DNA of 64,000 nt from Emcibacter sp. SYSU 3D8 (GTDB lineage: Bacteria > Pseudomonadota > Alphaproteobacteria > SMXS01), in the NCBI RefSeq assembly GCF_039655875.1, contig NZ_JBBYXK010000003.1:62001-126000 (forward strand), in the 5' to 3' direction. Numbering within the stretch: position 1 is the first letter of the stretch; every line of letters starts with the position of its first letter. Under the pieces are notes generated by a model. The model had not been told where the DNA came from. It saw only the letters and a program-made list of their open reading frames with translations, and searched no databases. Position numbers and translations under genes: made by a program. Below are positions 17,238-47,072 of the stretch, piece by piece.

Positions 17238-19562
17238 TTAGAAGTCATAGGTCAACGTCAGCCGGCCCGTCCGGCCATCGCCCTTGTACAGGAACGATCC
17301 CGAACGATAGACGGCGAGATAATAATCCTTGTTGCCGACATTGTTGATATTCAATCTCAACTCCAGATCGTCGGTGATCTGGTAGGTGGCGAACAGATCG
17401 AACACCGCGTAGCCCGGGACGGGAACCCGGTAACTGCCGTCCGCCGCATAGCTGGCCGCCGTGTCGGGCTGGCCGCCGAACCGCTTGCTCTCGTACTTGA
17501 CCGCACCGCCGAACGAGAATTTCTCGGTGAGCTGGTATTTCGCCTGCAGGACCGCCGAATATTTGGCGAAGTTGCTCAGTACCTTGCCCACATTGTCGGG
17601 CGTGGCGGACTTCAGCACCTTGCTGTCCATCAGGGTCAGGCCGCCCTGTACCGTCAGCGCGTCGGTGACATTGCCGGTGACGCCGAACTCGACGCCGCGC
17701 ACGCGGTTCTTGCCGGTGTTGAAGGTGCCAACCGAATCATAATCGGCGCCTTCCATGACGTCCGACTTGGTCGACTGGAACAGGGCGGCGGTCAGCAGCA
17801 GCCGCTCGTCCAGGATGTTCCACTTGGTGCCGACTTCTAGGTTGATGGAGCGCTCGGGCGCCGCGCCCGCAATGCTGCCGTTGTAGATCACCGTGCCGCC
17901 GTAACCGCTGTTGGTGCCAACGTCGGATTCGCCGCCGTTGATATCCGCAGCCGATGCGAAGCTGGCATAGAACATGCCGCCGCCGCCGACCTTGTAGGTC
18001 ACGCCCACGTGGCCGTTCCACAGCGAGTCCGAGTTCTTGTAGCGGTCCAGGGCCATCGTGCGGCTGTTCTGTGTGGCCAGATCAAAGTTGTAGGCATCGA
18101 AGCGGACGCCGGTGAACAGGGACAGCCGGTCGGTGAGGTCGAAGGTGTCCAGCAGATAGACGGCGATGGTCTCGACGCCCCAGTCCGAATCCCAGTTGCC
18201 CCGGGTGATCTCGCGGCCCAGCAATGTGTTCAGGCCGTTGACCGCGCCGCCGTCGGGACCGATCGCGCAGAAACTGTTGGGAGCGGTGGCGTTGCCCGTC
18301 ATGCAATTTGGCGAACCGGTATTGTTGACGTTGTAGACGCCGTTCAGAACCTTGTGGTTGGTGTATTCGACGCCGGCAATGAAGTCGTGCTTGCGGCCGA
18401 ACAGGTCCGCGTCCCAGAACAGGTTGGTCTGGTTGGCGAAATACTCCACGTCCTGCCAGCCCTGATGGGTGCTGAGCGTGGCGCTGGCATAATCGCCGTC
18501 CGGGTCCAGGGCCGTCGTGCCGCGCGCGCCGGTGACAACGTAGCCGTTGTCCGAGCGGCCATACCGCATCAGGTTCATGACGCGCAGGTCCGGACTGAAT
18601 GAATAGGCCAGACGCGCCGTGAAGGTGTCGACGTCGGACGACTGGAAATCCTGCTTCTGGGCGTAAACCGGCACGCCCTTGGTCGGCAGCATGTCGGTCA
18701 GGTAGCTGCCCAGATCCGGGTTGTCGTCGGCGCGCAGGCCGTAATAGTCCAGCGTCAGGGTCAGGTTGTCGTTCGGCGTGAACACGCCGGAAACCGCGAG
18801 CCCCTTGCGCTCCCGGTCGGCGGGACCGCGATCGGGAATTTCCTCGTAGGCGTAGAGCGCGTTGGCGCGCACGGCGAACTTCTCGCCGAACGAGTGGTTG
18901 ACGTCGACGGTGGCGCGCACGTGCTGGTCGGTGCCCAGACCGACGCCGATCTTGCCGAAGTCGAACGCATTGGTCGCCTGCTTGGTGATGGCGTTGATCG
19001 CGCCGCCCGACGTGCCGCGACCGGCAAAGCTGGAATTCGGCCCCTTGGAAATCTCGATCTGCTCGATGGCGAAGCTCTCGCGGATGGTCATGCCCGGGTC
19101 GCGCAAGCCGTCCACGAAGACGTCGCTGCGGGCTTCCTGGCCGCGGATGATGTAGCGGTCGCCGAAGGCATTGCCGTTTTCGCCGGTGCCGATGGTGATG
19201 CCAGGCTGCGCGTCCAGAATGCGGACCAGGTCGGTGTAGCCTGAATCGTCGATCTGCGACTTGGTCAGAACGGAAATGGTCTGGGGCGTTTCCGCCAGCG
19301 GGCGCGTGTGGCGTTCGTCGCCCGATGTCCGGGCCTTGTAGGGCACGCCCACCTCGGCGTTCGGGTTCGGATCGATGGCGGTGTCCTCGATCTTGACCGG
19401 CGCCAGCATTTTAACCGGCGCGTCCTGCGCGAGCGCCTGCTGCGGAATCAACATCGCCGCCGAAAGGCTCAGGGCACTGGCGGTGATCGAGGTGTTGCGC
19501 AGGCTTTTGGCCGGCAGTCGCCGTGAGGTGGATTTCGCAGTCTTGCTGCCTACAGCGTTCAT
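17238..19562 (-). CDS. TonB-dependent siderophore receptor, Fiu-like
   Basis: 774 residues. The long basic signal region ends QQALAQ. The plug domain has the TonB-box-side segment RPLAETPQTISVLTKSQIDD, the plug motif YIIRGQEARSDVFVDGLRD and IEISKGPNSSFAGRGTSGGAIN. The barrel ends in LTLTYDF with terminal Phe. This pattern is that of catecholate siderophore receptors. It is the first gene of the iron operon continuing through the FMN dehydrogenase, PiuC-like enzyme, tonB, exbB and exbD, and has a Fur-box-like promoter 55-80 bases upstream. Confidence 0.93.
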   Translation of the reverse strand: MNAVGSKTAKSTSRRLPAKSLRNTSITASALSLSAAMLIPQQALAQDAPVKMLAPVKIEDTAIDPNPNAEVGVPYKARTSGDERHTRPLAETPQTISVLTKSQIDDSGYTDLVRILDAQPGITIGTGENGNAFGDRYIIRGQEARSDVFVDGLRDPGMTIRESFAIEQIEISKGPNSSFAGRGTSGGAINAITKQATNAFDFGKIGVGLGTDQHVRATVDVNHSFGEKFAVRANALYAYEEIPDRGPADRERKGLAVSGVFTPNDNLTLTLDYYGLRADDNPDLGSYLTDMLPTKGVPVYAQKQDFQSSDVDTFTARLAYSFSPDLRVMNLMRYGRSDNGYVVTGARGTTALDPDGDYASATLSTHQGWQDVEYFANQTNLFWDADLFGRKHDFIAGVEYTNHKVLNGVYNVNNTGSPNCMTGNATAPNSFCAIGPDGGAVNGLNTLLGREITRGNWDSDWGVETIAVYLLDTFDLTDRLSLFTGVRFDAYNFDLATQNSRTMALDRYKNSDSLWNGHVGVTYKVGGGGMFYASFASAADINGGESDVGTNSGYGGTVIYNGSIAGAAPERSINLEVGTKWNILDERLLLTAALFQSTKSDVMEGADYDSVGTFNTGKNRVRGVEFGVTGNVTDALTVQGGLTLMDSKVLKSATPDNVGKVLSNFAKYSAVLQAKYQLTEKFSFGGAVKYESKRFGGQPDTAASYAADGSYRVPVPGYAVFDLFATYQITDDLELRLNINNVGNKDYYLAVYRSGSFLYKGDGRTGRLTLTYDF

Positions 19563-19613
19563 TGGTTTCCCTCCATGTGGATCGTGTTGTCGCCGCTGTG
19601 CGTTGCAAAAATC

Positions 19614-19641
19614 GTATAATACTTCTGATTATCATTCGCAA
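19614..19641 (-). promoter_or_regulatory. Promoter with Fur-box-like operator
   Basis: On the minus strand a -35-like TTGCGA (19641-19636) and -10-like TTATAC (19619-19614) are 16 bases apart. Between them lies AATGATAATCA (19636-19626), identical to 11 central bases of the Fur consensus. Repression by iron-loaded Fur would block the receptor operon; iron control is inference from the site and gene content. Confidence 0.7.
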
Positions 19642-19848
19642 CTACTGGCGGCGATAAATCGTCATAATTCTCAATCGCAACTGGACAGAGGGGGTTTCAG
19701 TGTCTCGGGGGACGACCAAGGCACCCGGGGCCGCTCGCCGGCGCCGCGGGATCATCTGCTGGGGTCGAAGCCAATTATGAACTAGCTTCGTGTCACGGGA
19801 GGCGATAGGGGAAGCCCCGATGCCGCCGTTCAATCAGGGAGGATATTC

Positions 19849-20628
19849 ATGGATCTGGGGATCAAGGGACGCAACGCCATCGTCAACGCCGCGTCCAAGG
19901 GACTGGGGCGGGCGTGTGCGTTCTCGCTGGCGCGTGAAGGCGTCAAGCTGACCATCTCGGCGCGGGGCGAGGAGGCGCTGCAGGCAACCGCCGCCGCTAT
20001 CCGCGCCGAAACCGGCGCGGACGTGACCGCCGTGGTCGCCGACGTGGCCACGGAAGCGGGCCGCGCTGCCGTGCTGGCCGCGTGCCCCGAGCCGGATATC
20101 CTGGTGAACAATTGCGGCGGTCCGAAAGCGGGCAATTTCCGCGACTGGACCCGCGACGACTGGATTGCCGCGCTCGATTCCAACATGCTGAGCGCCATCG
20201 AACTGATCAAGGCCACCGTCGATCCGATGATCGCCCGCAAGTTCGGCCGCATCGTCAATATCACGTCAGGCGCGGTGAAGTCGCCGATCGCGCCGCTCGG
20301 CCTGTCGAACGGCGCCCGCGCCGGCCTGACCGGCTTCGTCGCCGGCGTCTCGCGCCAGTTGGCCGAGCACAACGTCACCATCAACAATCTGCTGCCTGGC
20401 GCCTTCGATACCGACCGCATTCGCGTGCCGGTGCGCGCCATGGCCCAGCAGCAGGGCCGAAACGAGGACGACGTGATGGCGGGCATGCTCAGCACGATTC
20501 CCGCCCACCGGCTCGGTACGCCATACGAGTTCGGCGAAGCCTGTGCGTTCCTGTGCTCGGCGCAGGCGGGCTACTTCGTCGGCCAGAACCTGCTGATCGA
20601 CGGCGGGCAGTTCAACTCGACGATGTAG
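19849..20628 (+). CDS. Atypical SDR family protein lacking the YxxxK pair
   Basis: 259 residues, SDR fold. The cofactor loop reads NAASKGLGRA instead of TGxxxGIG, and where classical enzymes carry YxxxK this one has SNGAR, so both the catalytic Tyr and Lys are replaced. NNCGG replaces NNAG, while NITSG keeps the Ser region. The C-terminal LIDGGQFNSTM is normal. It may bind a nucleotide without classical reduction, or use a different acid-base set. A GGGAGG site precedes the ATG. It starts the accessory catabolic region, divergent from the iron operon. Confidence 0.85.
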   Translation: MDLGIKGRNAIVNAASKGLGRACAFSLAREGVKLTISARGEEALQATAAAIRAETGADVTAVVADVATEAGRAAVLAACPEPDILVNNCGGPKAGNFRDWTRDDWIAALDSNMLSAIELIKATVDPMIARKFGRIVNITSGAVKSPIAPLGLSNGARAGLTGFVAGVSRQLAEHNVTINNLLPGAFDTDRIRVPVRAMAQQQGRNEDDVMAGMLSTIPAHRLGTPYEFGEACAFLCSAQAGYFVGQNLLIDGGQFNSTM

Positions 20629-26161: not shown

Positions 26162-28414
26162 GTGGGGATTGGCAAACTCGTTTTCGGAGCCGTGCTTCTG
26201 GTTGCAGCGGCACTCGCCGGTTGCAGCGAAGAGCGGCCGGTCCTGGAGACGGTCGAGGACGCGCAGCACGCCCGCATCGGCGTGATGACCGGATCGACCG
26301 GCGAGGCCTACGCCAAGCACGCCTTTCCCGACGCCGACATCAAGAGCTTCGACGACATCATGGACGCGGTGGCCGCGGTCAAGTCCGGCCAGATCGACGG
26401 CATCGTCACCGCCATCTCGACGGCCATCCAGGTGGCAAAGACCAATCCCGAATTCCGCCACCTGGAAGAGCGCCTGACCAACGAGAACACCGCTGCCGCG
26501 CTCCGCAAGGGCAACGACAAGCTGCTTGCCGACGTGAACAGGATCATCTCCGACCTGCGCAATGAGGGCCGCCTGGAGGAGATGAAGGAACGCTGGTTCA
26601 AGGACGATCTCAGCCCGTACAACGAACCGGACATCCAGTTGCCCGAGACCGGCGAGCCGCTGCGCATCGGCGTCGCCGCCACACGGGAGCCGGTCAGTTT
26701 CGTCGACAAGGGTGGCCGGTTCACCGGCTACGATGGCGAGCTGGCACGGCTGTTCGGTCAGCGTCTCGGTCGGCCCGTCGAATTCCACGACATGAAGTTC
26801 ATGGCGCTGATCCCGGCACTGGCCTCGGGCAAGATCGACATGATCGTGACCGGCATGACCGCCACCGACGAGCGCCGCAAGGCGGTCGACTTCACCCAGT
26901 CCTATTTCGCCAATGCCCAGGTGTTGATGACCCGCAAGCCGGACAGGGACGGCGCGGGGCCGATACCGGGCGGGGGCCTGGAACTGCGCTCGCAGGACGA
27001 TTTGGCCGACAAGCGTATCGGCGTGATGATGGGCACGGTCTATGACGGCTACGCGGTGGAGAAATGGCCCAAGGCCGAAATCCTCAACTACCAGTCGTCC
27101 TCCGACCTGGCGCTGGCGCTGGCGACCGGCAAGGTGGATGCCATTCTCTACGATGCCGAACCGCTGCGCGAGATCCTGCGGGAGAGGCCAGACCTGACGA
27201 ATTTCGGTCCGCCGCTGTTCACCTTGCCCATGGGTATCGGGTTCAGGAAGGGCAGCCCGCTACTCGGCGAGTTCAATCGGTTTCTGGCCGAAATCCGCAG
27301 CAACGGGCTCTATGACGACATGACGACGCGGTGGATCGACCACCGCGAGTTCGGCATGCCCCAGATCCGGGCGGATGCGCCGATGGGCAAGATCGTCGTG
27401 GGCGCGACCGGCGGCAGCATGCCGTTCTCGGGCGTGCAGGACGGCGTGATGATCGGCTTCGACATCGAGCTTACCCGGCGCTTCGCCGCCTTCCTTGGCC
27501 GCGACATCGAGATCGCCGACATGGAATTCGGATCCCTGATCGCCGCCGTGGCGGCCGGCAAGGTCGACCTGATCGCGGCCTCCATCTACATCACCGAGGA
27601 ACGCAAGCGGCAGATCGACTTCTCCAATCCCTATTTCGCCATGGAAAGCTGGGTGGCCGTCCGCAAGATCGACGTGGCCGGCACCGATGCGCCGACGGCG
27701 GTTCCCGAGCGGTCTTTCCTGGAGGGCATCGCCGACAGCTTCCAGAGCAATATCATCCATGAAAAGCGCTACCTGCTGCTGTGGGAGGGATTGAAGGTCA
27801 CGGTGCTGATCTCGATCGCCGCAACCCTGTTCGGCACTGCGCTGGGCGCGCTGATCTGCTTCATGCGCATGTCGCACAACACGCTGCTGCAGATACCGGC
27901 CAAGATCTATATCTCGATCCTGCGCGGCATGCCGGTGCTGGTGCTGCTGATGCTGATCTATTATGTGGCGTTCGCCTCGGTGAACATCAGCCCGATCCTG
28001 GTGGCGGTGATCGCCTTCGGCATGAACTTTGCCGCCTATACGGCCGAGATCTACCGCAGCGGCATCGTGGGCATCGACAAGGGTCAGTCCGAGGCGGGCA
28101 TCGCCATGGGGTTCACCAGGCTGCAGGCCTTCATCTACATCGTGCTGCCGCAAACTGTCCGGCGCATCCTGCCGGTGTACAAGGGCGAGTTCATCTCGCT
28201 GGTGAAGATGACCTCGATCGTCGGCTACATCGCCGTGCAGGACCTGACCAAGGCCAGCGACATCATTCGCAGCCGGACCTTCGACGCATTCTTCCCGCTG
28301 GTGATGGTGGCCATCCTATACTTCCTGATCTCGTGGCTGCTGATGCAGTCGCTGGGCTACCTTGAGCGAAAGACCGATCCCCAATATGGGCGCCGGAAGG
28401 CAGGTGCGGCATGA
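26162..28414 (+). CDS. Fused substrate-binding/permease protein of a polar amino acid-type ABC transporter
   Basis: 750 residues, GTG start after a G-rich site. A lipoprotein signal ([14 protein letters not shown] with Cys21) precedes a half binding domain (about 38-148) containing only the second lobe of an SBP_bac_3 module. A full module follows at about 164-392 ([10 protein letters not shown], then [17 protein letters not shown]), then a first-lobe half at 405-505 ([14 protein letters not shown]). The permease, about 535-740, has the EAA loop [11 protein letters not shown]...LPQ and is HisM/GlnP type. The two halves may fold together as a second binding site. The stop overlaps the ATPase gene (ATGA). 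Confidence 0.9.
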
Positions 28415-29502
28415 TCCGGGTCGAGCATCTCTCCAAGCGCTTCGGCGACCTTGTCGTCCTTGCCGACATCAACGTGGAGATCGCCAAGGGCGAGGTGGTG
28501 TCGATCATCGGCCCCTCCGGCACCGGCAAGAGCACCTTTCTGCGCTGCCTAAACCTGCTGGACCAGCCCAGCGGCGGGTCGATCTGGATCGACGACAAGG
28601 ACATCCTGGCGCCGGGAGCCGACGTGGCCGGCGTGCGTCAGAAGATGAACATGGTGTTCCAGTCGTTCAACCTGTTCGCCCATCTGTCGGTGCTCGACAA
28701 CCTGACCCTTGCGCCGATCAAGCTGAAGGACGAGAACCGCGCTTCGGCGGAACGCCGCGCGCTCGATCTGTTGCGTCTCGTCGGCCTTGGCGAAAAGGCG
28801 CATGCCTTCCCCGATGAACTGTCCGGCGGCCAGAAGCAGCGCGTCGCCATCGCCCGCTGCCTCGCCATGGAGCCGGAAGTGATCCTGTTCGACGAGCCCA
28901 CCTCAGCGCTCGATCCCACCATGGTTTCCGAAGTGCTGTCGGTAATCCGACGCCTGGCCAAGGAAGGCATGACCATGGTGATCGTCACCCACGAGATGGA
29001 CTTCGCCCGCGACGTGTCGAACCGGGTATTCTACATGGACGAGGGCCTGATCTATGAAGAGGGTCCGCCGTCGCAGATCTTCGACAATCCGCAGCGGGAG
29101 AAAACCTCGGCATTCATCAACCGCATCCGCAGTTATGTCAGCCACATCGCCTCGCCCGATTTCGATCTCTACGCCCTCAATGCCGAGATCGAGACCTTCT
29201 GCGAGAAACATATCGTGCCCCGCGAGGCGCGGCGGAATCTGATGCTGCTGGTCGAGGAAGTGCTGCAGATTCACAAGCCGTGGCTGGTGCGCGGCAGACT
29301 CGACCTGACCGTCTCCTACTCGGAAAAGAACGGCCAGCTGGAACTGGACTGCGAGTGCGACGGTGACGCCGGCAACCAGATGCACCCCGACGAAGGCGAG
29401 GACGGCCTTGAGGCGATGATCATCAATTCGCTGTGCGAGCGCATCGACTACCGGGTTGCTGATGGCCGCAGCCGGCTGGAGTTTCTCGTCAAGCGGACTT
29501 GA
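28411..29502 (+). CDS. Amino acid-type ABC transporter ATPase with GHKL-like C-terminal tail
   Basis: 363 residues, about 110 longer than GlnQ/HisP. Walker [10 protein letters not shown] (34-42), Q-loop in VFQSF, signature LSGGQ (137-141), Walker B VILFDEP (157-163) and H-loop His194 are intact. Residues about 246-363 form an extra domain whose layout ([11 protein letters not shown], a beta pair ending CDGDAGN, and [20 protein letters not shown]) resembles RsbW-type GHKL ATPases but lacks the N-box Asn, so probably does not bind ATP. It is coupled to the fused permease gene, and a strong terminator follows. Confidence 0.9.
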
Positions 29503-30927: not shown

Positions 30928-31490
30928 CAGCGTTCCAGCAGCCGGCTGACCACGCCCCAGGACGGATCCGTCTCATCCCATTTGCCCAGCGCTTCCGGCG
31001 GGCTGCGCGACAGGCCGCCATCCGTATAGTCCAGGTCCTGGATCCAGTCATAGACGCCCGTGCGGCGCGCGATACGCCAGCCCGGACCCCGATTTTCGAA
31101 ACGATCGATATAGCGTCCGCCGACAATCGACACGTATTGCTCGCCGGGCCGGTTGTAATACAGGCCGTTGGTGTTGAGGCCGGGCGGATAGTCGGCCGGC
31201 ACCACGTGGTAGCCGTTGACGTAGGTCTCCACCTGGGCGGTGTCGCCTTTCAGCTCGATCAGGATATTGGCCACCATGTGATGGGTCGGCCCCAATGGAT
31301 CGACGATCGAGCGGGCGGCCTTGACGAAGCCGCGCCAGTCGCCGCCGATATCGCCGAAGCCATAGCGGGCGTCGTCATGGAACACATGCTCCATCAACTC
31401 CCAGCGTCGCCGGTCCAGCGCGTGGCAGTAAAGGTGCAGGATCCGGTGAATATCCGATTCGGCGGCAAGGCGTGCGAGCGTATCGGTCAC
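30927..31490 (-). CDS. NTF2/SnoaL-like protein
   Basis: 187 residues if started at the GTG at 31490, whose GTGA overlaps the SDR stop; an upstream ATG at 31523 is possible. A SnoaL_4-type cone is visible: LHLYCHALDRRRWELMEHVF, THHMVANILIELKGDTAQVE, GGRYIDRFENRGPGWRIARR. The fold is that of Rieske beta subunits and of isomerases. Its place in the Rieske1 operon suggests a small subunit or a downstream dehydratase. It is a paralogue of the exported protein at 24.9 kb. Confidence 0.82.
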   Translation of the reverse strand: MTDTLARLAAESDIHRILHLYCHALDRRRWELMEHVFHDDARYGFGDIGGDWRGFVKAARSIVDPLGPTHHMVANILIELKGDTAQVETYVNGYHVVPADYPPGLNTNGLYYNRPGEQYVSIVGGRYIDRFENRGPGWRIARRTGVYDWIQDLDYTDGGLSRSPPEALGKWDETDPSWGVVSRLLER

Positions 31491-32179
31491 CACGGATGCT
31501 CGTCGCCGGTCCACTTCAGCCACTTGCCGTTGTCGGCGGGCGTCAGGGCAGTGATCACCTTCATGACATCGGCCGCCGCGTCGGGCGGGTCCATGTCGGC
31601 GACCGGCCCGGCCATCTCGGTCCGAATCCAGCCCGGATGGATCAGGGTCACGGTCACGCCCTCGTCCTTCAGCTCGTTGGCGAGGCCCGTCATCAACCGG
31701 TTCAGGCCGGCCTTGGCGCTGGCATAGGAATAGCCGATGACGTGGTCATAGGCCGCCGCCGCGGTCTGACTGGTCATGGTGGCGATGATTTTCCGCTGGC
31801 TCGCGAGCACATTGGGCAGAAATGCCTGGACCACGCGGAATGGCCCCATGGCCATGATGTTGAACTCATGGGCCCAGTTCTCGTAATCCATGTTCTGGAA
31901 GGTCTGGGTGTCGAGACCGCCCCAGACACCGGCGTTGTTGATCAGGATGTCGATCGGGGCGTTGCCGATCTCGCGGGCGCAGGCTTTCACCGATTCCCCG
32001 TCGCCCACATCCATGCGGTGGAGCGTCGCCTTGCCGCCCGACGCGTCGGTGACCTGCTTCAGCTTGTCGGCCGTCTCTGGGTTCCGTGTCGTGGCGTAGA
32101 CGCGGTGGCCGGCATCGGCAAACTGCCTGACCAGTTCATAGCCCAGTCCGCGGGCCGCGCCCGTGATCAGAATATTCAT
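31487..32179 (-). CDS. SDR family oxidoreductase
   Basis: 230 residues. MNILITGAARGLGYELVRQF carries TGxxxGLG, then NNAGVWGG, and YASAK with catalytic Tyr and Lys. The short C terminus (TPADNGKWLKWTGDEHPW) is of the CsgA/sniffer-like type rather than FabG type. It lies 30 bases downstream of the Rieske1 gene and overlaps the NTF2-like gene. It could oxidise a dihydrodiol or alcohol made by the oxygenase; that is inference from context. Confidence 0.88.
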   Translation of the reverse strand: MNILITGAARGLGYELVRQFADAGHRVYATTRNPETADKLKQVTDASGGKATLHRMDVGDGESVKACAREIGNAPIDILINNAGVWGGLDTQTFQNMDYENWAHEFNIMAMGPFRVVQAFLPNVLASQRKIIATMTSQTAAAAYDHVIGYSYASAKAGLNRLMTGLANELKDEGVTVTLIHPGWIRTEMAGPVADMDPPDAAADVMKVITALTPADNGKWLKWTGDEHPW

Positions 32180-32209: not shown

Positions 32210-33592
32210 TCAGCGGCCCAGATATTTCTCCAGCGTCCGATGCATGTGCCGGATGCGGATTTCCTGGTAATTGCCCAGCGTGGCGCCGCGCCTGCCGGTC
32301 GTCATCGCGCCCTCCTGGGCGGCTTCCATGTTGCCGGTATCCTGGTCGAAGACGTGTCCCACATAGGGGTCCATGCCGGGCACGATGGTGTAGGATTCTT
32401 CGGCCTTCAGGCGCACCGGCACGGCGGTTTCATAGGCCTCGCCATCGAGCGGCTTGGGCTTCAGGATCACCAGGTCGAACAGCGCCTTGTCGTGCTGCAT
32501 GCCCAGCGGCCGGAAGCGGTAGACGATGGGAAACGACACGCCCGAGAAGAACTGCTGGTTGGGAAACACGAAATAGGCGATCGAGTCGACGATCTCGCTG
32601 TCGCAGACCGCCGACAGGTCGGCGCCGCCCTGGCCTGCCACCATGTCGCGGTAATATTGCGCCATCACCTTTCGCGCTGTGCCGCCTTCGGGCACCAGCA
32701 GCCTGTCGCCCACATCCGACCGGTCGCCGATCAGGAAGGTGTCGAGAATTTCCTGCTCGGTGATGGGTTCTTCCAGGAACACGCTGGGCGATCCGCCCAC
32801 GGCGATCAGCCGGTTCACGTGCTCGCCGTAATAATCGTATTGCGTGTTGGCGTCGCCGCTGGCCCGCATCAACTGGCTGTGGGTTTCCATGACGTGATAC
32901 GCCTCGAGAAACGCTTCCGACGCGACCTTCCAGTTGCAGTGCAGTTCCTTCTGAACGTGCATGGCCACGTAGCGCGCCTCGAACACGGCACTGTCGATGT
33001 GCTCGGGCAGGGGATGCATGTATTCGTGCAGCGGCACCGCATCCGGGTCCAGATTAATGAACACGAAGCCGCCCCAGGTGTCGACGCGTACGGCGTCCAG
33101 CGCGTAGTCGGCCGGATCCACATGGGGAAAATCCCATTCGCAGGGGAACGAGGTCAGCGTGCCTTCCAGGTCCCATGTCCAGCCGTGATAGGGGCAGCGA
33201 ATCCGGCTGCCGCTGCCCTCGCTGAAGGACGGCTTCAGCTTGGTGCCCCGATGCGTGCAGGCGTTGCGGAAGGCCTTGATCGCGCCTGTTTCGGTACGTT
33301 GGACGATCACCGAATAGGGGCCAAAATCATAGACGATGTAGTCGCCGGCTTCGGGAATGTGCTCCTCGCGGCAGGCCCATTGCCATATCTTCGGCCACAG
33401 CAGCTTCAGTTCCTGCTGGAAATAGTCCGGTGAGGTATACCGCTCGAACGGGATAGGGTCGTCGCCCATAAAGGCATAGGACTCGGTGGTCAGATAATCC
33501 GGCGCGGGACGGCTGTCCTGCTGCAGCAGATCCTGCACGCTGATTCCCGGGCACCGTCCTTCGCCCGGCTTCATGTCGGTCATTCGGTTCAT
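32210..33592 (-). CDS. Rieske aromatic ring-hydroxylating oxygenase, alpha subunit (copy 1)
   Basis: 460 residues. The Rieske [2Fe-2S] ligands are Cys112/His114 (CTHRGTKL) and Cys133/His136 (CPYHGW). The mononuclear iron His233 and His238 are in EAYHVMETH. It would hydroxylate an organic substrate using electrons from a ferredoxin/reductase not found in the window. The start at 33592 has a GGAGAG site. Sequence blocks (PFERYTS, WQWACREEHIPE, and a tail YQEIRIRHMHRTLEKYL) are shared with copy 2 at 41.2 kb. It heads an operon with SDR, NTF2-like and amidohydrolase genes, under a TetR-type operator. Confidence 0.93.
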   Translation of the reverse strand: MNRMTDMKPGEGRCPGISVQDLLQQDSRPAPDYLTTESYAFMGDDPIPFERYTSPDYFQQELKLLWPKIWQWACREEHIPEAGDYIVYDFGPYSVIVQRTETGAIKAFRNACTHRGTKLKPSFSEGSGSRIRCPYHGWTWDLEGTLTSFPCEWDFPHVDPADYALDAVRVDTWGGFVFINLDPDAVPLHEYMHPLPEHIDSAVFEARYVAMHVQKELHCNWKVASEAFLEAYHVMETHSQLMRASGDANTQYDYYGEHVNRLIAVGGSPSVFLEEPITEQEILDTFLIGDRSDVGDRLLVPEGGTARKVMAQYYRDMVAGQGGADLSAVCDSEIVDSIAYFVFPNQQFFSGVSFPIVYRFRPLGMQHDKALFDLVILKPKPLDGEAYETAVPVRLKAEESYTIVPGMDPYVGHVFDQDTGNMEAAQEGAMTTGRRGATLGNYQEIRIRHMHRTLEKYLGR

Positions 33593-33624: not shown

Positions 33625-33664
33625 TTGTTATTCAACAGTCGTGTAATATAAGTTAGATTGTCAA
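33625..33664 (-). promoter_or_regulatory. Rieske1 promoter with TetR-type palindrome
   Basis: On the minus strand TTGACA (33664-33659) lies 22 bases from the centre (33637) of an imperfect 25-bp palindrome (33625-33649). Its half TTGTTATTCAAC is identical to that of the perfect palindrome at 34556. It also lies upstream of the divergent TetR gene. Confidence 0.7.
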
Positions 33665-33849
33665 TGCGGTTTCTGCCGCTCCTCCAGGTTTCTTTCCTGC
33701 TGAATGGGTCGCGTTTCATCATATCAGGACCACCGCCGGTTGGCATGGATTTGCCTGGCGCGGCGGTGGTGCCCGTAAAACTACTTTCATTTGTGGCGGC
33801 TAATCGGTGACAAAGATGGCACGGCCAATAATTTTCAGGAGTGCGGCAT

Positions 33850-34497
33850 ATGCCCATAATTGTCGATCACGATGAGCGCCGGCACTACATCGCCCGCGTC
33901 GTGGAGCGCGTGATCGCCAAGCAGGGCATGGATGCCGTCACCATCAGGAACGTGGCGCGCGAAGCCGGCTTTCGCTCGACCCTGATCTCCCATTATTTCA
34001 AGGACAAGAAGGACATGCTGACCTTCACCCTGGATTCGATCAGATCCAGGGCAGCGATCCGTGTCGACAAGGAATTTCTCGACAAGAACGACCTGGCGGC
34101 CTGCCTTGAGACCCTGCTTGCCACCAACGAGGACGAATTGTCCGACTGGCAGGCGTGGTTCGGATTCTGGGAAAAGGCCACTTTCGACCCCGAGCTGTCC
34201 GCGGTTCGGCTCGGTGTCGTGGAAGCCACGCACAATACCATCAAGCACCTGCTCGACCGGGCGAAGGGCAGGGGCGAGTTGCCGAGGACGCTGGATTCGG
34301 AATTCCATGCCCGGCGCCTGCAGATTGTGATGAACGGCCTTGCCGCCCACGTTGTGATGCAGCCGGCCGACTGGCCCGCCGAGGCGCAGCGCGCGCTCGT
34401 GAAGGTCGAGATCGAGTTGATGAAGAAGATGCCGAAGCCGCCCGCCGGCACCAAATTGCCCGACTTCAACGTCCCGGCCTTTGCCTACACCCGCTGA
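33850..34497 (+). CDS. TetR-family transcriptional regulator (BetI-like)
   Basis: 215 residues. The helix-turn-helix is DAVTIRNVAREAGFRSTLISHYFKDKKDML, read in parts about residues 26-55, followed by an all-helical ligand domain with WQAWFGFWEKATFDPELSAV, the TetR_C BetI pattern. An ATG at 33850 with CAGGAG upstream is preferred over a GTG at 33841. It is divergent from the Rieske1 operon and next to an SDR gene with a perfect palindrome. It is the only TetR gene in the window and the prime candidate to control the three palindromic promoters. Confidence 0.9.
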   Translation: MPIIVDHDERRHYIARVVERVIAKQGMDAVTIRNVAREAGFRSTLISHYFKDKKDMLTFTLDSIRSRAAIRVDKEFLDKNDLAACLETLLATNEDELSDWQAWFGFWEKATFDPELSAVRLGVVEATHNTIKHLLDRAKGRGELPRTLDSEFHARRLQIVMNGLAAHVVMQPADWPAEAQRALVKVEIELMKKMPKPPAGTKLPDFNVPAFAYTR

Positions 34498-34540
34498 TTC
34501 CATCACCGCCTGAAACGCCGCCGGGCGCGGCAAATTCCCG

Positions 34541-34580
34541 TTGACAGCGCTTGTATTGTTATTCAACTGTTGAATAACAA
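34541..34580 (+). promoter_or_regulatory. SDR promoter with perfect TetR-type palindrome
   Basis: TTGACA at 34541-34546; 22 bases further lies the centre (34568) of a perfect 25-bp palindrome (34556-34580) with arms TTGTTATTCAAC / GTTGAATAACAA. The operator covers the expected -10 region and lies 21 bases before the SDR start. Confidence 0.8.
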
Positions 34581-34601
34581 ACTGTGTAAATGGGGAATTC
34601 G

Positions 34602-35396
34602 ATGAACGGGAAATCGCTTCAGGGCAAGGTTGCCATCGTTACCGGCGCGGGCCGGGGTATCGGCCGCGGCATCGCCATGGCCTACGCCGCCGAAGGCGCC
34701 AAGGTCGCCGTGGTGTCGCGCACACCCTCGACGGTCGAGGCTGTCGCCAGGGAAATCAAGGATGCGGGCGGCGAGGCGATCGGCATCGCCTGCGACGTCG
34801 GCCAGCGCGACCAGGTATTCGCGGCCGTCGACCAGACCGTGAAGGCGTTCGGCACCGTCCACATCCTGGTCAACAACGCCCAGGGCTTCGGCACCGAGGC
34901 CGAGCCGCGCGCCTCGACGGTGTTCATGGCGATGGAGGACACCGACGAGGACGAGTGGGAATACACCTTCCGTACCGGCGCCACGGCCTCGCTGTGGTTC
35001 ATGAAGGCGGTGTTCCCGCACATGAAGGCGCAGTATTATGGCAAGATCATCAACTTCGCCTCCAGCTCGGGTCAGATGGGGTTCCCGGGCAACACCTGCT
35101 ACAACGCCACCAAAGAGGCCATCCGCGCGCTGACGCGGACAGCGGCCAACGAGTGGGGCCAGCACGGCATCACGGTCAACGTGATCAACCCGGCGCTCGA
35201 GACCCGCGCATTCGACGCCTGGAAAACGGCACGTCCCGAATTCGTCGAGGCGCTGAAGGAAAAAATTCCCATGCGCCGTCTTGGCGATCCGGACAAGGAC
35301 GCCGGACCGATCGCCGTGTTCCTGGCCAGCCCCGGCTCCGACTACATGACCGGCGGCACCTTCATGCTCGAAGGCGGCATGCACACGCTGCCCTGA
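34602..35396 (+). CDS. SDR family oxidoreductase
   Basis: 264 residues. VTGAGRGIGRG, NNAQG (in place of NNAG), SSS and YNATK with catalytic Tyr and Lys are all present, with the C-terminal TGGTFMLEGGMHTLP. An ATG at 34602 with GGGGAA upstream is favoured over one four codons earlier. It is the first gene of a rightward group (two SDRs, an EthD-like protein) headed by a TetR-type palindrome. Probable reductase or dehydrogenase acting on the oxygenase product. Confidence 0.9.
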   Translation: MNGKSLQGKVAIVTGAGRGIGRGIAMAYAAEGAKVAVVSRTPSTVEAVAREIKDAGGEAIGIACDVGQRDQVFAAVDQTVKAFGTVHILVNNAQGFGTEAEPRASTVFMAMEDTDEDEWEYTFRTGATASLWFMKAVFPHMKAQYYGKIINFASSSGQMGFPGNTCYNATKEAIRALTRTAANEWGQHGITVNVINPALETRAFDAWKTARPEFVEALKEKIPMRRLGDPDKDAGPIAVFLASPGSDYMTGGTFMLEGGMHTLP

Positions 35397-35422
35397 GCCC
35401 CCCTTCCTGAATTGCTGAACCA

Positions 35423-35441
35423 GCGCGGCCCCAGGCCGCGC
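35423..35441. other. Intercistronic hairpin
   Basis: GCGCGGCC / GGCCGCGC, 8-bp perfect arms with a CCA loop, between the two SDR genes and without a T-tract. It may adjust mRNA stability or partly stop read-through from the first SDR gene. Confidence 0.4.
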
Positions 35442-35458
35442 CATTACGGAGCTTCATC

Positions 35459-36208
35459 ATGCTACTCGAGAACAAGATTGCCATCGTCACCGGCGGCGGC
35501 AGCGGCATCGGCAAGTCTGCGGCGCTCGTCATGGCCCGCGAAGGCGCGACCATCGTCATCGGCAACCGCTCGGCCGAACAGGGCGAGGAAACGTGCCAGG
35601 AGATCGCCAAGGCCGGCGGGAAGGCCATCTTTCACCGCACCGACTGCTCGAAGCCAGAGGATTGCGAGGCGCTGGTCGCCCGTGCCGAAACGGAATTCGG
35701 CCGCCTCGACCTTGCCTTCAACAATGCCGGCAAGTTCCATGACGTGCTGGCGCCGGTCCACGAGATGCCCATCGACGAGTTCTCCAACGGTATCGACCTG
35801 AATCTCAAGGGCGTCTTCTACTGCATGAAGTACGAGCTGGCCGCCATGCTGCGCGCCGGCGGCGGCGCCGTAGTCAACAACGCCTCGATCTTCGGCATCA
35901 AGGGCATGCCCACGCTCAACTGGTACACGGCGGCCAAGCACGGCATCGTCGGCCTGACCCAGTCGGCGGCGCTGGAATACGCCACGCTCAACATCCGCAT
36001 CAACGCGGTCTGCCCCGGCATGACCAAGACGCCCGCCCTCGATGTCTCGACCGGCGGCAACGACGACGCCTTTGCCGGCATGGTGCCGATGGGACGCATC
36101 GCCCGCTCGGAGGAAATCGGCGAGGGCGTCGCGTGGCTGTTGTCGAGTCGCGCCAGCTACATGACGGGCGCCGCGCTGAACCTGGATGGCGGCATGATCG
36201 CCGCCTGA
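35459..36208 (+). CDS. SDR family oxidoreductase
   Basis: 249 residues, classical FabG/BaiA-like SDR: VTGGGSGIGKSAALVMAREG, NNAGK, catalytic Ser in NNASIFG, YTAAK, MTKTP, and TGAALNLDGGMIAA at the end. A CGGAG ribosome site precedes the ATG. It lies 62 bases after the preceding SDR gene and 24 bases before the EthD-like gene. The two adjacent SDRs are only distantly alike, so they probably catalyse successive steps. Confidence 0.9.
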   Translation: MLLENKIAIVTGGGSGIGKSAALVMAREGATIVIGNRSAEQGEETCQEIAKAGGKAIFHRTDCSKPEDCEALVARAETEFGRLDLAFNNAGKFHDVLAPVHEMPIDEFSNGIDLNLKGVFYCMKYELAAMLRAGGGAVVNNASIFGIKGMPTLNWYTAAKHGIVGLTQSAALEYATLNIRINAVCPGMTKTPALDVSTGGNDDAFAGMVPMGRIARSEEIGEGVAWLLSSRASYMTGAALNLDGGMIAA

Positions 36209-36232
36209 GCCATTCCTGAGGGGAGACGGGAA

Positions 36233-36571
36233 ATGTCGAAAAGCTACAAATTCGTTGTCCTGGCCAATGCTGCCGATGGACAGGATGCCGAGTTCAATGC
36301 CTGGCACAGCAAGACCCATCTTCCCGAAGTGGTGCGCGCCGCCGGCTTCATTCGCGCCGAGCGGATGAAGCTGGTGCCCGGCACCGGCGGGGACGGCGAG
36401 TCCTATCAATATCTGATTGTTTTCGAAGGCAGTGGCGACCAGCCCGTCGATGCATTGCAGCGCCTCGGCGCGGCGGTGGCCGACGGGAAGATCGCCATGT
36501 CCGACAGCCTGGGCGCGCCGCTCTGGTCGGGACTGTTCGAGGAAATACCGGGCGCGTCGTTCGCGGCCTGA
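36233..36571 (+). CDS. EthD-like/dimeric alpha-beta barrel protein
   Basis: 112 residues. SYKFVVLANAADGQDAEFNA, WHSKTHLPEVVRAAGFIRAE and YQYLIVFEGSGD match the small ferredoxin-like barrel of EthD-like and DUF4286-like proteins, with a conserved His in the HLPEV segment. Such proteins often accompany ring oxygenases or act as cyclases and lactone isomerases. It ends the SDR pair group; the outer-membrane receptor gene with its own palindromic promoter follows. Confidence 0.78.
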   Translation: MSKSYKFVVLANAADGQDAEFNAWHSKTHLPEVVRAAGFIRAERMKLVPGTGGDGESYQYLIVFEGSGDQPVDALQRLGAAVADGKIAMSDSLGAPLWSGLFEEIPGASFAA

Positions 36572-36616
36572 GTCCGGTCACGCGCCGGAGACCGCGGCGC
36601 CGTCAATCCAATATCG

Positions 36617-36658
36617 TTGACAGGTGAATTTTATTTTGTTCACCTGATGAACAATAAA
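36617..36658 (+). promoter_or_regulatory. Receptor promoter with TetR-type palindrome
   Basis: TTGACA at 36617-36622; 23 bases downstream is the centre (36645) of a palindrome with arms TTGTTCA / TGAACAA (36636-36654) and AT-rich extensions. The centre TTCACCTGATGAA resembles TTCAACTGTTGAA of the site at 34556. It lies about 20 bases upstream of the receptor start. Confidence 0.72.
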
Positions 36659-36677
36659 GATGTCTGGGGAGGATATC

Positions 36678-39116
36678 ATGTCGATCCGTCACAAGGTTCT
36701 GTCCGCGATCGGCGCCGGTTGCCTGGCGCTATCGCTGGCCCCGGGGGCCGCACTGGCCGCCGAGCCGCAATCCGAGCAGCCCGCGCCATTCGTCCGCAAG
36801 GGCGGCGTGGAAGAAGTTCTGGTCACGGCGCGCAAACAGGAGGAATCGCTCCAGAAGGTGCCGATCGTGGCGACCGTGTTCTCGCCCGAGCAGATCGATC
36901 GCTATGGCCTGGTCAGCCTGGAAAAGCTGGCCACGTCCACGCCGGAACTGATCATCGGCCGCGCGTCGAACGGTGGCGGCGCGCAGCTGACCATGCGCGG
37001 CATCGGCTCGATGCCCACCTCGATCGGCATCGAGCAGTCGGTCGCGGTCGTCATGGACGGTGTCTATTACGGCCAGGGCCGCACCATCAACGAAGCCATG
37101 TTCGATGTGTCGCGGATCGAGGTGCTGAAAGGACCCCAGTCGCTGTTCTTCGGCAAGAACGCGACCGCCGGCGTGATCTCGATCACGTCCGCCGATCCCG
37201 GCGACGAATTCGAGGCCATGGCGCGGATCGGCTTCGAGGCGCGTTCCGAGAACCTGGTGACCGAGGGCTTCGTGTCGGGCCCGCTGTCCGACAAGGTCGG
37301 CGCCCGGCTCGCGGTCCGCGTCGGCGAGATGTTCGGCAGCTACTTCAACAACAGCGGTTTCGACGTGACCAACTACACGTTCGATGCGGCCACGTTCAAT
37401 CTGAACCCGCATCTGTCGCGCAAGCTCGACCGCGGCGCGCCCGGCACCAGCGAACAATTCCTCAGGGGCACCATCAAGTTCACCCCGTCGGACCGGCTGA
37501 CCGCGACGCTGAAGGCCAGCTACATGAATACGGTGGATGAATCGAATGCGTGGAACTACGTGCTCTTCGCCTGCCCGACAGGCACCGCGTCGTTCAATCC
37601 CGACGTGCCCTGCAAGAAGAACTTCGACGTCTATCTGAACTACTTCCCCGAGGACGTGGCCGGCAACATCAAGTACGGCCGCGACGACGGGTCGCCCTTC
37701 AACCGCTACCAGTCCTATTCGGTTTCGGGCACCATCAACTACGAATTCGACAATCTCACCATCACCTCTGTCTCCAACTACCAGCGGAACCGGAACAACT
37801 GGGGCTGCTCGTGCCAGAACCTGTCGACGCCGCTGGCCTTCATCGCCGCCACCGAGCTGTCGATCTGGGAGGCCTTCTCCAACGAGACCCGGCTGCAATC
37901 CACCTTCGACGGGCCGTTCAACTTCATGGTCGGCATGCTGTACCAGGACACCAAGCGCGATCACCGGCAGGCCGCGAATTTCGGCGGCATCGAGGATTCG
38001 AGCCAGCCGATCGAGCGCCGCTATCTGGCCTATGACAAGCCTTCGGTGACCAAGGGCGAGACCATCGCCGGCTTTGCCCAGGCCAAGTGGTACGTGCTGC
38101 CGGATCTCGAGTTGGCTGGCGGCGTTCGCTACACCCACGAAACCAAGAAGAGCTTCCTCAACCAGACCTATGTGAACGTGCTGCTTCAGGGTGTCTTCCC
38201 GGAGAACGCACCGATCTTCGGCGATCAGACGTTCAACGACTGGTCACCGGAAGCCACCATCACCTATAGCGTGACCGACGACGTGTCGGTCTACGGCGCC
38301 TACAAGACGGCCTACAAGTCGGGCGGCTTCTCCAACAGCGCCCTGATCACATCGGCGACCATACCCAGCGACGTGTCGTTCGGACCCGAAAAGGCCAAGG
38401 GGTTCGAGGTCGGATTGAAGACGCTGCTGTTCGACCGTCAGCTGCGGCTCAACGTGGCCGCCTACACCTACAATTACACGAACCTCCAGGTGGACTTCTT
38501 CAACTCCATCACGTTCCAGTTCATTACGACCAATGCGGGTTCGGCGCGGACGAAGGGCGTCGAGATCGAAGCCGAATATGCGCCCGATGCGGTCCCCGGG
38601 CTGACCATGCGGAGCAGCCTCAATTTCAACCGGGCCCGGTTCACCAACTATATCGCGCCCTGCTACGACGGACAGACGCCGGCCGATGGCTGCACGCTCG
38701 TTTTCCAGGGCGGCCCCGGCCAGGATCTCAGCGGCAGCCCGACCGCCGTTGCGCCCAAGGTCACCGCCGCGCTTGGCATCAACTACGAAATGCCGTTCGG
38801 CGCCGACTGGTATCTCGGCATGTCGGTGGATGGCCGGTACAGCTCGAAATATCTCGGGTCCAGCTTCGGCGCGCCGCTGTCGCTGCAACGCGCCTATGCC
38901 AATCTCGATGCCTCCATTCGTCTGCGGAGCAACGACGACCGCTGGGAATTCGCGATCATCGGCCGCAACCTGACCAACCAGTTCTACTTTGGCGGTGTGC
39001 AGGCCAATCCCAGCACCGGCTCGGGAACCGGCACGCCCGCCGGCATCCAGGCCGACCAGCTTGCCCTTGCCTCGCTGCCCCGGACCGTCCAGTTCCAGGT
39101 GACCTGGCGTTATTAG
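36678..39116 (+). CDS. TonB-dependent outer-membrane receptor
   Basis: 812 residues. The signal peptide (SIRHKVLSAIGAGCLALSLA, ending ALAA) is followed by a TonB-box-like VEEVLVTARKQEE, and the plug with SVAVVMDGVYYGQGR and RIEVLKGPQSLFFGKNATAG. The barrel ends RTVQFQVTWRY. This TonB-box/TARK pattern is common in sphingomonad-type receptors for organic substrates, not only siderophores. A GGGGAGG site precedes the start. Its TetR-type palindrome and neighbours suggest it imports the substrate of the Rieske pathway. Confidence 0.93.
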   Translation: MSIRHKVLSAIGAGCLALSLAPGAALAAEPQSEQPAPFVRKGGVEEVLVTARKQEESLQKVPIVATVFSPEQIDRYGLVSLEKLATSTPELIIGRASNGGGAQLTMRGIGSMPTSIGIEQSVAVVMDGVYYGQGRTINEAMFDVSRIEVLKGPQSLFFGKNATAGVISITSADPGDEFEAMARIGFEARSENLVTEGFVSGPLSDKVGARLAVRVGEMFGSYFNNSGFDVTNYTFDAATFNLNPHLSRKLDRGAPGTSEQFLRGTIKFTPSDRLTATLKASYMNTVDESNAWNYVLFACPTGTASFNPDVPCKKNFDVYLNYFPEDVAGNIKYGRDDGSPFNRYQSYSVSGTINYEFDNLTITSVSNYQRNRNNWGCSCQNLSTPLAFIAATELSIWEAFSNETRLQSTFDGPFNFMVGMLYQDTKRDHRQAANFGGIEDSSQPIERRYLAYDKPSVTKGETIAGFAQAKWYVLPDLELAGGVRYTHETKKSFLNQTYVNVLLQGVFPENAPIFGDQTFNDWSPEATITYSVTDDVSVYGAYKTAYKSGGFSNSALITSATIPSDVSFGPEKAKGFEVGLKTLLFDRQLRLNVAAYTYNYTNLQVDFFNSITFQFITTNAGSARTKGVEIEAEYAPDAVPGLTMRSSLNFNRARFTNYIAPCYDGQTPADGCTLVFQGGPGQDLSGSPTAVAPKVTAALGINYEMPFGADWYLGMSVDGRYSSKYLGSSFGAPLSLQRAYANLDASIRLRSNDDRWEFAIIGRNLTNQFYFGGVQANPSTGSGTGTPAGIQADQLALASLPRTVQFQVTWRY

Positions 39117-42618: not shown

Positions 42619-42647
42619 AGTATATTTTTTATTGCACAATTGCACAA
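42619..42647 (-). promoter_or_regulatory. Rieske2 promoter with tandem 8-mer
   Basis: On the minus strand -35 TTGTGC (42647-42642), 17-base spacer, -10 TATACT (42624-42619). Overlapping the -35 and spacer are two exact copies of TTGCACAA on the plus strand (42632-42639 and 42640-42647), a likely regulator site unlike the TetR-type palindromes. Confidence 0.7.
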
Positions 42648-42729
42648 TTAAAAGCGATGCTAGGATGACCAACGCGGCGGCATCGGGGAGATGCGAAAGC
42701 GGCGCGCAAACGGGACAGGGGAGACAATC

Positions 42730-44888: not shown

Positions 44889-47072
44889 ATGACGCGCATA
44901 TCCAAATGGGAGATTTCGGTCGCCGCCGCGCTGCTGCTGACCGGTGCGGTGCTGATTTTTGCCGCGAACTTTTATGGCACGAGGCTGGAGGAGCGCAGGC
45001 TGCGCGACCTCGCCGTGATGGCCGCTGCCTCGCTGGAGGCCGCCGACGTGGCTGCGCTGGCCGCGAGTACCGACTATGACGGCCTCACCGGCACCCGAGA
45101 GTTCCGTGACATCCGGGCGGCGCTGGCGCGCATGCGGCAATCGATCCCCGATTCGCAGTTCATCTACCTGATTGCCAAATCGGCCGGGGACTGGCGATTC
45201 CTGGCCGATGCGGGGACGGTCGGCTCGGCGGACTATTCACCGCCCGGTCAGATCTACCGGGACGATGCGTCGGGATTTGAAACCGTGCTGCGCACCGGCC
45301 AGCCTTTCGTCGAGCCGATGGCGGAGGATCAGTGGGGTGTGTGGGTTTCCGGCGAGGCTCCGATCCTGGATCCCGCCACCGGCAAGACGGTGGCTGTCCT
45401 GGGCATCGATGTCGACGCCCGCGACTGGATCGCCCGGGTCTGGGGCTATCGCGCGGCAGGAGCCGGGGTTGCCATGCTCATCGCCGTGATCGCCGCCCTG
45501 TTCGCGATCGGGCGACGGCGTCAGGAACGCAACATCCGCGCGCTCGCCGCCCTCGAGGACAGCACCAGGACGATCATGAATGCGGCGGCGGTGGGGCTTA
45601 TGACCATCGACGAGAACGGCATCATCAGGTCGTTCAATCCGGAAGCCGAGCGCATCTTCGGCTATGCGGAGAACGACGCCGTCGGCGCCAACGTGTCCAT
45701 GCTCATGCCCGAGCCCGAACAGAAGGCCCATGATGGCCATATCGCCCGCTTCCTGGGGTCCGGCAGCAGTAATGTGGTGGGCACGGGCACCCGCGAGCTT
45801 CTCGGCCGGAGAAAGGATGGCAAGACGTTCCCCATGGAACTGAGCGTCGCCCAGATGACCACCGGCGGCAGGACCCACTTCGTCGGCAGCATCCAGGACG
45901 TGTCCGAGCGCAAGGCAACCGAGGAGAGTCTGCGGCAGGCGCAGAAGATGGAAACGCTGTCCAATCTCACGGGCGGCGTCGCGCACGACATCAACAACAT
46001 GCTGATGTCCGTGCAAACCAACCTGGAACTGGTCGAGGATCACCTCGGCGACGACCCTGCGGCGGTCGATTCCATGAGCCTGGCATTGGAGGCGCTGAAG
46101 CACGGCGCCGAATTGTCGAACCGGTTGCTGGCGTTCTCGCGCAAGCAGCCGCTGCAGCTGAAAGTCACCAACATCAATACGCTGGTCGGCGATACCTTCC
46201 AGCAGCTGAAGCGGACATTGCCGGATTCCATCAACGTCCGGACATCGCTGGCGGGCGATGCCTGGTCGGCTGAGGTCGACCCCACCCAACTCGCCAATTC
46301 GCTGGTCAGCCTCGCCTTCAACGCGCGCGATGCCATGCCCGGCGGCGGCATTTTGAGAGTCGAGACGTCAAACACCCGGCTCGACGAGGCGGATGTGGCG
46401 GATATGGAGGGACTCCGGCCGGGCGATTATGTGTCGATCACGGTCACCGACAATGGCTGCGGCATGCCGCCCGCAGTGGCCGCCCGGTCGTTCGACCCGT
46501 TTTTCACCACCAAGCCCGCGGGACAGGGCAGCGGGCTCGGCCTCAGCATGGTGTATGGGTTCGCCAAACAATCGGGCGGACATGTCAGCATCGAAAGCGA
46601 GGAGGGCAAGGGGACGAGCGTGCGGATGCTGTTCCCCCGCACCGGCGCCCAGTCCCTTGCACAGATTCCGGTTCGCACCAGGAAACCGGCGCAGGCGCAG
46701 GGTGAAACCATCCTGCTGGTCGAGGACGAGCCCACGGTGCGCGCCGGCATCAGCCGGATCCTCGGCGGCCTGGGCTATATCGTGCACGGCGCCGGCAGCG
46801 GACCCGAGGCGATGGACCTGATCGACGGCGGGCTGGCGCCCGACCTGATCCTGGCCGACGTGGTGCTGCCTGCCGGCATGAGCGGTCCGGAGGTGGCCAG
46901 CGCCGTGGTTGCGCGGGTGCCGTCGTGCAAGGTGCTGTTCATGTCGGGGTACACCGACAATATCATGGGCCATGAAGGTCGGCTCGACCCGGGTGTGGAA
47001 TTGCTGACCAAGCCGTTTCCCAGGGCGGCCATCGCGGCCAAGCTGCGCGAAATCCTGGACGTGGCGACCTGA
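44889..47072 (+). CDS. Hybrid membrane sensor histidine kinase (PAS-HisKA-HATPase-REC)
   Basis: 727 residues. Two membrane helices, about 9-29 and 190-208, enclose a periplasmic sensor domain of about 160 residues (LGIDVDARDW near its end). A PAS domain covers 222-342 (GLMTIDENGIIRSFNPEAER), then HisKA with His366 (TGGVAHDINN), GHKL boxes (NSLVSLAFNARDAM, DNGCGMP, GSGLGLSMVYG) and a C-terminal receiver (about 610-727, Asp in LILADVVLP). No output domain is encoded, so a phosphotransfer partner lies elsewhere. It is 50 bases after the ABM gene and may sense the pathway substrate. Confidence 0.92.
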   Translation: MTRISKWEISVAAALLLTGAVLIFAANFYGTRLEERRLRDLAVMAAASLEAADVAALAASTDYDGLTGTREFRDIRAALARMRQSIPDSQFIYLIAKSAGDWRFLADAGTVGSADYSPPGQIYRDDASGFETVLRTGQPFVEPMAEDQWGVWVSGEAPILDPATGKTVAVLGIDVDARDWIARVWGYRAAGAGVAMLIAVIAALFAIGRRRQERNIRALAALEDSTRTIMNAAAVGLMTIDENGIIRSFNPEAERIFGYAENDAVGANVSMLMPEPEQKAHDGHIARFLGSGSSNVVGTGTRELLGRRKDGKTFPMELSVAQMTTGGRTHFVGSIQDVSERKATEESLRQAQKMETLSNLTGGVAHDINNMLMSVQTNLELVEDHLGDDPAAVDSMSLALEALKHGAELSNRLLAFSRKQPLQLKVTNINTLVGDTFQQLKRTLPDSINVRTSLAGDAWSAEVDPTQLANSLVSLAFNARDAMPGGGILRVETSNTRLDEADVADMEGLRPGDYVSITVTDNGCGMPPAVAARSFDPFFTTKPAGQGSGLGLSMVYGFAKQSGGHVSIESEEGKGTSVRMLFPRTGAQSLAQIPVRTRKPAQAQGETILLVEDEPTVRAGISRILGGLGYIVHGAGSGPEAMDLIDGGLAPDLILADVVLPAGMSGPEVASAVVARVPSCKVLFMSGYTDNIMGHEGRLDPGVELLTKPFPRAAIAAKLREILDVAT

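Follow-up and report, generated by a model that had tools for sequence, protein, structure and literature searches.

Between positions 33625 and 36657 of the window, by which we mean the whole stretch of 64 000 nucleotides of Emcibacter sp. SYSU 3D8 that was analysed, three palindromic sequences precede a gene for a Rieske oxygenase, a gene for an SDR and a gene for a TonB-dependent receptor, and among them, at 33850, starts a gene for a TetR-family regulator. The question raised by this arrangement is whether the three palindromes are operators of one repressor and, if so, whether this repressor is the TetR encoded beside them. From the sequence comparisons set out below, we consider it quite probable that they are indeed the operators of this TetR, which would block the three promoters until it is released by a ligand.

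Gene content of the locus

Searches with Pfam revealed in the locus a TetR with a BetI-type C-terminus, the alpha subunits of two Rieske oxygenases, several SDRs and a TonB-dependent receptor. The genes around the palindromes are the following, L027 to L030 being the corresponding loci of four related species:

31487..32179, minus strand: SDR located 3′ of Rieske copy 1 on the same strand, probably in the same operon (Pfam; adjoins Rieske copy 1 in L027-L030)
32210..33589, minus strand: alpha subunit of a Rieske ring-hydroxylating oxygenase, copy 1 (PF00355, PF00848)
33850..34494, plus strand: TetR-family regulator, the proposed repressor (TetR_N PF00440, BetI-type C-terminal domain PF13977)
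34602..35396, plus strand: SDR 1 (adh_short_C2, Pfam), first gene of operon 2; start chosen here, the ORF list giving an earlier ATG at 34590
35459..36208, plus strand: SDR 2 (ORF list, Pfam)
36233..36571, plus strand: small protein, EthD-like in our own reading, with DUF4286 as sole Pfam hit, below the cut-off
36678..39116, plus strand: TonB-dependent receptor; start chosen at the ATG that follows GGGGAGG, the ORF list starting at 36660

The small protein had no match in L027-L030 at 1e-10, the contig of L027 ending before that place. For Rieske copy 1 the best NCBIfam match is GbcA, with a score of 118.9 compared to a cut-off of 670; NCBIfam assigns neither oxygenase to a named equivalog. 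Other neighbouring genes encode an FMN-dependent dehydrogenase and MBL-fold, amidohydrolase, SnoaL-like and CMD proteins. At 44889 a hybrid histidine kinase is encoded, in which a receiver domain was recognised and no DNA-binding domain. Further away, the ORF of an ABC-transporter ATPase (28411-29502, 363 amino acids) has a Pfam ABC domain that ends at residue 165, and its C-terminal part looks separate by eye.

In two of the related loci SDR 3 and the MBL-fold gene are separated by a gene for an FAD-binding dehydrogenase (L029, about 18200-19850; L030, 17337-18983). The L029 copy was taken from the ORF list; the L030 protein belongs to PF00890, resembles 3-ketosteroid dehydrogenases in our own reading and, when compared with the window by tblastn at 1e-3, found no counterpart there.

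Three palindromic sites with a common geometry

Site 2 (34556-34580) reads TTGTTATTCAAC-T-GTTGAATAACAA, a 12+1+12 palindrome without mismatch; no other perfect palindrome of this size exists in the window. An exact second copy of its half-site TTGTTATTCAAC is found at 33625-33636, before Rieske copy 1; since the opposite half fits the symmetry at only 7 of the 12 positions (hand count), site 1 is made of one good and one degraded half. Site 3, TTGTTCACCTGATGAACAA (36636-36654), lies ahead of the TonB receptor gene. Its 19 bp form a palindrome around an asymmetric 5-bp centre, and its 25-bp frame agrees with the 25-mer of site 2 at 18 of 25 positions on one strand and at 17 on the other. Each site is accompanied by a TTGACA box in a near-fixed position:

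33625..33649, minus strand: putative operator 1, before Rieske copy 1 (TTGTTATTCAAC read on the plus strand at 33625-33636, plus the degraded half); kept in 5/5 loci
33659..33664, minus strand: TTGACA, -35-like box of the Rieske copy 1 promoter, 22 bases from the centre of operator 1
34541..34546, plus strand: TTGACA, -35-like box of the SDR promoter, 22 bases from the centre of operator 2
34556..34580, plus strand: putative operator 2, the perfect 25-bp palindrome; kept in 5/5 loci
36617..36622, plus strand: TTGACA, -35-like box of the receptor promoter, 23 bases from the centre of operator 3
36633..36657, plus strand: putative operator 3 (core palindrome 36636-36654); kept in 4/4 loci reaching that far

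The window contains 10 TTGACA hexamers in total, counting both strands, 3 of which belong to the three sites. The palindrome, the half-site and the receptor palindrome had been pointed out in the initial annotation together with their distances from TTGACA (22, 22 and 23 bases); on re-reading the window the coordinates proved correct and the distances were reproduced.

Rarity of the sites

At the base composition of the window, 0.04 occurrences of the 12-mer TTGTTATTCAAC are expected in 4.07 Mb; 3 were observed, all within sites 1 and 2. Even when 3 mismatches were tolerated, the 25-mer was matched in the whole genome at site 2 only, and in 20 Markov windows, where positions without T at either of the first two bases were skipped as a shortcut, no compared position reached an 18/25 match. 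Perfect 25-bp palindromes of other sequence arose twice in these 20 windows, and the perfect palindrome by itself is therefore only mildly unusual. The core TTCANCNGNTGAA occurs at 6 places in the genome, compared to 2 for the control with the reversed pattern; the 4 cores outside the locus lack the outer arms, none of them is preceded by TTGACA within 60 bases, and the 2 for which ORFs were listed (L033 and L037) are both inside ORFs.

The initial annotation had called for a motif search of the genome for more copies and had held that a palindrome common at unrelated genes would refute a local regulon. This search was carried out with R1, a 46-position sequence profile built from 14 sites (those of the window and of the relatives). 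On the genome itself R1 recovered all three (E 5e-11 to 7e-10), as well as the reverse reading of site 2, and with E up to 10 nothing else among the 150 of 480 candidates that were fully scored. R1 matches by construction the sites from which it was built, and it is only its silence elsewhere that is informative: a wider regulon was sought genome-wide and none was found among the fully scored candidates, an outcome that does not refute the local regulon. When 385 genomes of the class were searched with stricter filters and at most 16 candidate places scored per genome, R1 gave matches in the genome itself (G000), in G005 and, partially, in G179, where the 20.4-bit match is taken as chance.

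Conservation in the genus

Orthologues of the TetR were found in four further species of the genus (79-92% identity), identified by contig position with the genomes of L027-L030, so that the comparison set consists of five species, that of the window and the four relatives. Four of the related genomes are labelled as metagenome-assembled. The sites occupy the same places in the relatives: 4/4 for site 1, 4/4 for site 2 and, for site 3, 3/3 of the contigs reaching it. TTGACA is invariant in 14/14 sites, at a distance from the centre that a hand count puts at 21-23 bases. When the columns of the operator plus TTGACA are compared with the remaining intergenic DNA, 26/31 are invariant versus 54/229, 27/31 versus 10/76 and 29/31 versus 11/57; alignment columns are not independent, and the p-values of this test are only a guide. 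A matrix derived from the 11 sites of the relatives alone ranks the window sites first, with scores of 47.3, 37.6 and 37.4, the next one being 16.3.

SDR 1 was not found in L028 and L029, and operator 2 persists there, now before SDR 2. In L030 the receptor gene has behind it, on the same strand, Rieske copy 2 and an SDR, which may therefore fall under operator 3 in that locus.

The place with the score of 16.3 (42626-42650) was considered as a fourth site and rejected: it is a direct repeat of TTGCACAA and not the same palindrome, and it is not counted here. This tandem TTGCACAA/TTGCACAA lies before Rieske copy 2 and is identical in L029 (17281-17305). Near it in the window, on the minus strand, TATACT is found 17 bases 3′ of the first TTGTGC, and is not kept in L029. 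The tandem element is perhaps the site of a different regulator.

The TetR at 33850 as the probable regulator

The protein encoded at 33850 exceeds the Pfam cut-offs for both its domains, the PF00440 helix-turn-helix domain (38.2 bits, cut-off 24) and PF13977, TetR_C_6 (62.1 bits, cut-off 27). A sequence search retrieved distant TetRs, the best being 2nx4, and an AlphaFold2 model, obtained from 5 close sequences, has a mean pLDDT of 60, a value too low for the model to be of use. Among the 18 window proteins scanned, it is the only one with a DNA-binding Pfam domain, the other 17 having none.

Sites and regulator go together. In 10 genomes of the order, 78-100% complete, sites were present in 5/5 of those with a TetR orthologue (at least 79% identity) and in 0/5 of those without, where the best match to the TetR is at 39%; full scoring covered at most 150 of the 244-843 candidate places in each genome, and the co-occurrence comes from 5 close species of one genus, which are not independent events. 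In the sample of 385 genomes of the class, with at most 7 candidates scored per genome, an orthologue-level match to the TetR was obtained in G000 and G005 only; G002, G003 and G006 are absent from this sample's matches. Presumed orthologues of Rieske copy 1, with an SDR as neighbour, exist in G009 (73%) and G001 (70%), the next matches being at 58% or less. In the 9.8 and 19 kb examined around them there is no match to the TetR and no high-scoring site: the best scores, with a matrix built without the window sites, are 11.2 and -0.4, compared to at least 37.4 for the window sites. Besides tetR, most of the cluster is missing from these stretches.

Residues 27-50 of the TetR are identical in 5/5 orthologues. 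The recognition helix differs in 9/9 of the paralogous TetRs compared, out of 17 paralogue entries: FRSTLISHYF here versus YSTAIVSHYF or FSTHVVSHYF. Around paralogous TetRs the best matrix score is 12.1, versus at least 37 for the window sites. Operators proper to the paralogues were sought in 9 stretches of 10 to 17 kb, corresponding to 9 of the 17 entries, and no repeated set was found. Another palindrome-like element, TGATCATATGGTCA, stands before a TonB receptor gene in two species (L085:1771-1795 and L087:15308-15332); both neighbourhoods hold a paralogous TetR and that of L087 also a Rieske gene. These two loci may represent a related regulon whose operator has diverged.

Because the sites are conserved, confined to the locus and co-occur with the TetR orthologue, one local TetR regulon over the three sites is well supported. 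The proposal of the initial annotation that the three sites answer to one repressor, probably the TetR at 33850, thus gains support from cross-species footprinting and from co-occurrence with the orthologue, the assignment of the regulator being correlative and drawn from one genus.

Promoters and control of tetR

It had also been claimed that the operator covers the -10 region each time. At spacings of 15-19 from TTGACA, the best hexamers of the 14 promoters have 2-3/6 matches and none is recognisable as a -10, so this claim stands as geometry only. In this lineage the -10 element may depart from that of E. coli. A general promoter scan did not report the three operator promoters; it reported 33832-33860 (plus strand) and 33746-33718 (minus strand), that is 2 compared to 0.7 expected, which is near chance. 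The latter is upstream of Rieske copy 1, beyond operator 1, and might in principle serve this gene as an alternative promoter.

TetR regulators are usually autoregulated. Here the distance from site 1 to the tetR start is 213 bp, and an operator nearer this start, sought in the 5 loci, was not found (best matrix scores -15.6 to -1.0); for this reason autoregulation is unproven, and site 1 could still act on tetR from 213 bp away.

Proposed mechanism and alternatives

We propose that a TetR dimer sits just 3′ of the -35 box at the three promoters and would thereby exclude RNA polymerase from the Rieske copy 1/SDR operon, from the SDR 1-SDR 2 operon and from the TonB receptor gene. A substrate or an early intermediate would bind to the C-terminal domain of TetR and release it, so that uptake and first oxidation would be switched on together. 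Repression by occlusion is the simplest reading, because the operator sits where polymerase would contact the promoter 3′ of the -35 box. We infer that TetR binds there and that it represses and does not activate, and likewise infer an inducer and a substrate.

The alternative to which we give most weight, while judging it several times less probable, is that the sites are operators of one regulator encoded elsewhere and that the neighbouring TetR has other targets. We only infer that TetR binds to the sites, the genome has at least 2 other TetRs of the same type, and the tetR promoter is without a site in the 5 loci, all of which would fit a distant regulator; it would hardly explain, however, why sites and TetR orthologue are jointly present or absent in 10/10 genomes, nor why no further site turned up among the genomic candidates fully scored. 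The TetR is, besides, the sole recognised DNA-binding protein among the 18 window proteins scanned. TetR could also bind to the sites and act as an activator or anti-activator at promoters lacking a normal -10, an improbable reading to our mind. The invariant TTGACA, together with the lack of any -10 better than 3/6, would agree with it, but the centre of the palindrome coincides with the expected contact of polymerase with the -10, a usual position for a repressor, and the -10 of this lineage may not follow the E. coli pattern. Unlikely as well is that this genus-restricted TetR with its own recognition helix does more than block polymerase, its operator doubling as a part of the promoter; this is suggested by the strict placing of TTGACA at 21-23 bases from the centre where no -10 is recognisable.

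A separate regulator for site 3, sites 1 and 2 alone belonging together, seems very improbable. Site 3 does stand apart by its TTGTTCA arms, its asymmetric 5-bp centre and its 18/25 match to the 25-mer in the window, but the L030 version, TTTTTGTTCAACTGATGAACAATAA, matches at 20/25 and bridges both forms, site 2 of three relatives has GAACAAC where site 3 has GAACAAT, and the TTGACA geometry is common to all sites. To chance palindromes or a repeat element we give practically no credit: although Markov windows do yield perfect 25-bp palindromes of arbitrary sequence (2 in 20), such an origin is rejected on the grounds of geometry, of genome-wide rarity and of conservation, which speaks strongly against it.

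Meaning and comparison with known systems

If the three sites are the operators of this TetR, then the receptor, the Rieske oxygenase and at least 2 dehydrogenases are assigned to one regulon, which suggests which genes act on one compound. Matches to the Rieske oxygenase alpha subunit are very numerous in this lineage: at E <= 1e-60 this genome gives 25 of them, and each of the nine further genomes of the order gives between 11 and 26. The operator coupled to a reporter would be a ready means for finding the compound.

Among the titles listed in a literature search none describes this TetR or its operator. The closest known systems are regulators of similar type or logic. By its model name (TIGR03384), BetI is a choline-responsive repressor. 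The TetR at 33850 shares the BetI-type C-terminal domain (PF13977) and has a weak similarity to BetI models, the BetI equivalog being its best NCBIfam match all the same; but with 55.2 bits compared to 201.3 it is far below the equivalog cut-off. The enzyme LigXa, which enters one of the parallels below, is a Rieske-type demethylase.

Two regulators of Sphingobium offer a likeness of logic. PheR, an IclR-type protein of Sphingobium sp. SHPJ-2, represses a catabolic operon and is released by the substrate; deletion of its gene raises TonB/ExbBD and a number of TonB-dependent receptors by a factor of about seven, and its footprint is of 44 bp with a GCAACG core, no direct site at the TonB genes being seen in the accessible part of that article (PMC13273656). 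It resembles the regulon proposed here, as far as that part goes, in linking a catabolic repressor to TonB genes, and differs from it by its family (PMC13273656). DdvR of Sphingobium sp. SYK-6, according to the accessible part of its description, is a local repressor over the TonB receptor gene ddvT and the catabolic gene ligXa, for an aromatic compound (PMC6874591). There, as is proposed here, one local repressor acts over a TonB receptor gene and a gene of a catabolic enzyme; DdvR, however, is a MarR-type protein with a known substrate (PMC6874591). In the window the same putative operator precedes the receptor gene and the oxygenase gene, and the proposed regulon is that of a TetR. The logic of the proposed regulon, in which a TonB receptor gene and a catabolic gene answer to one repressor encoded nearby, is already documented for DdvR and belongs to ordinary gene control.
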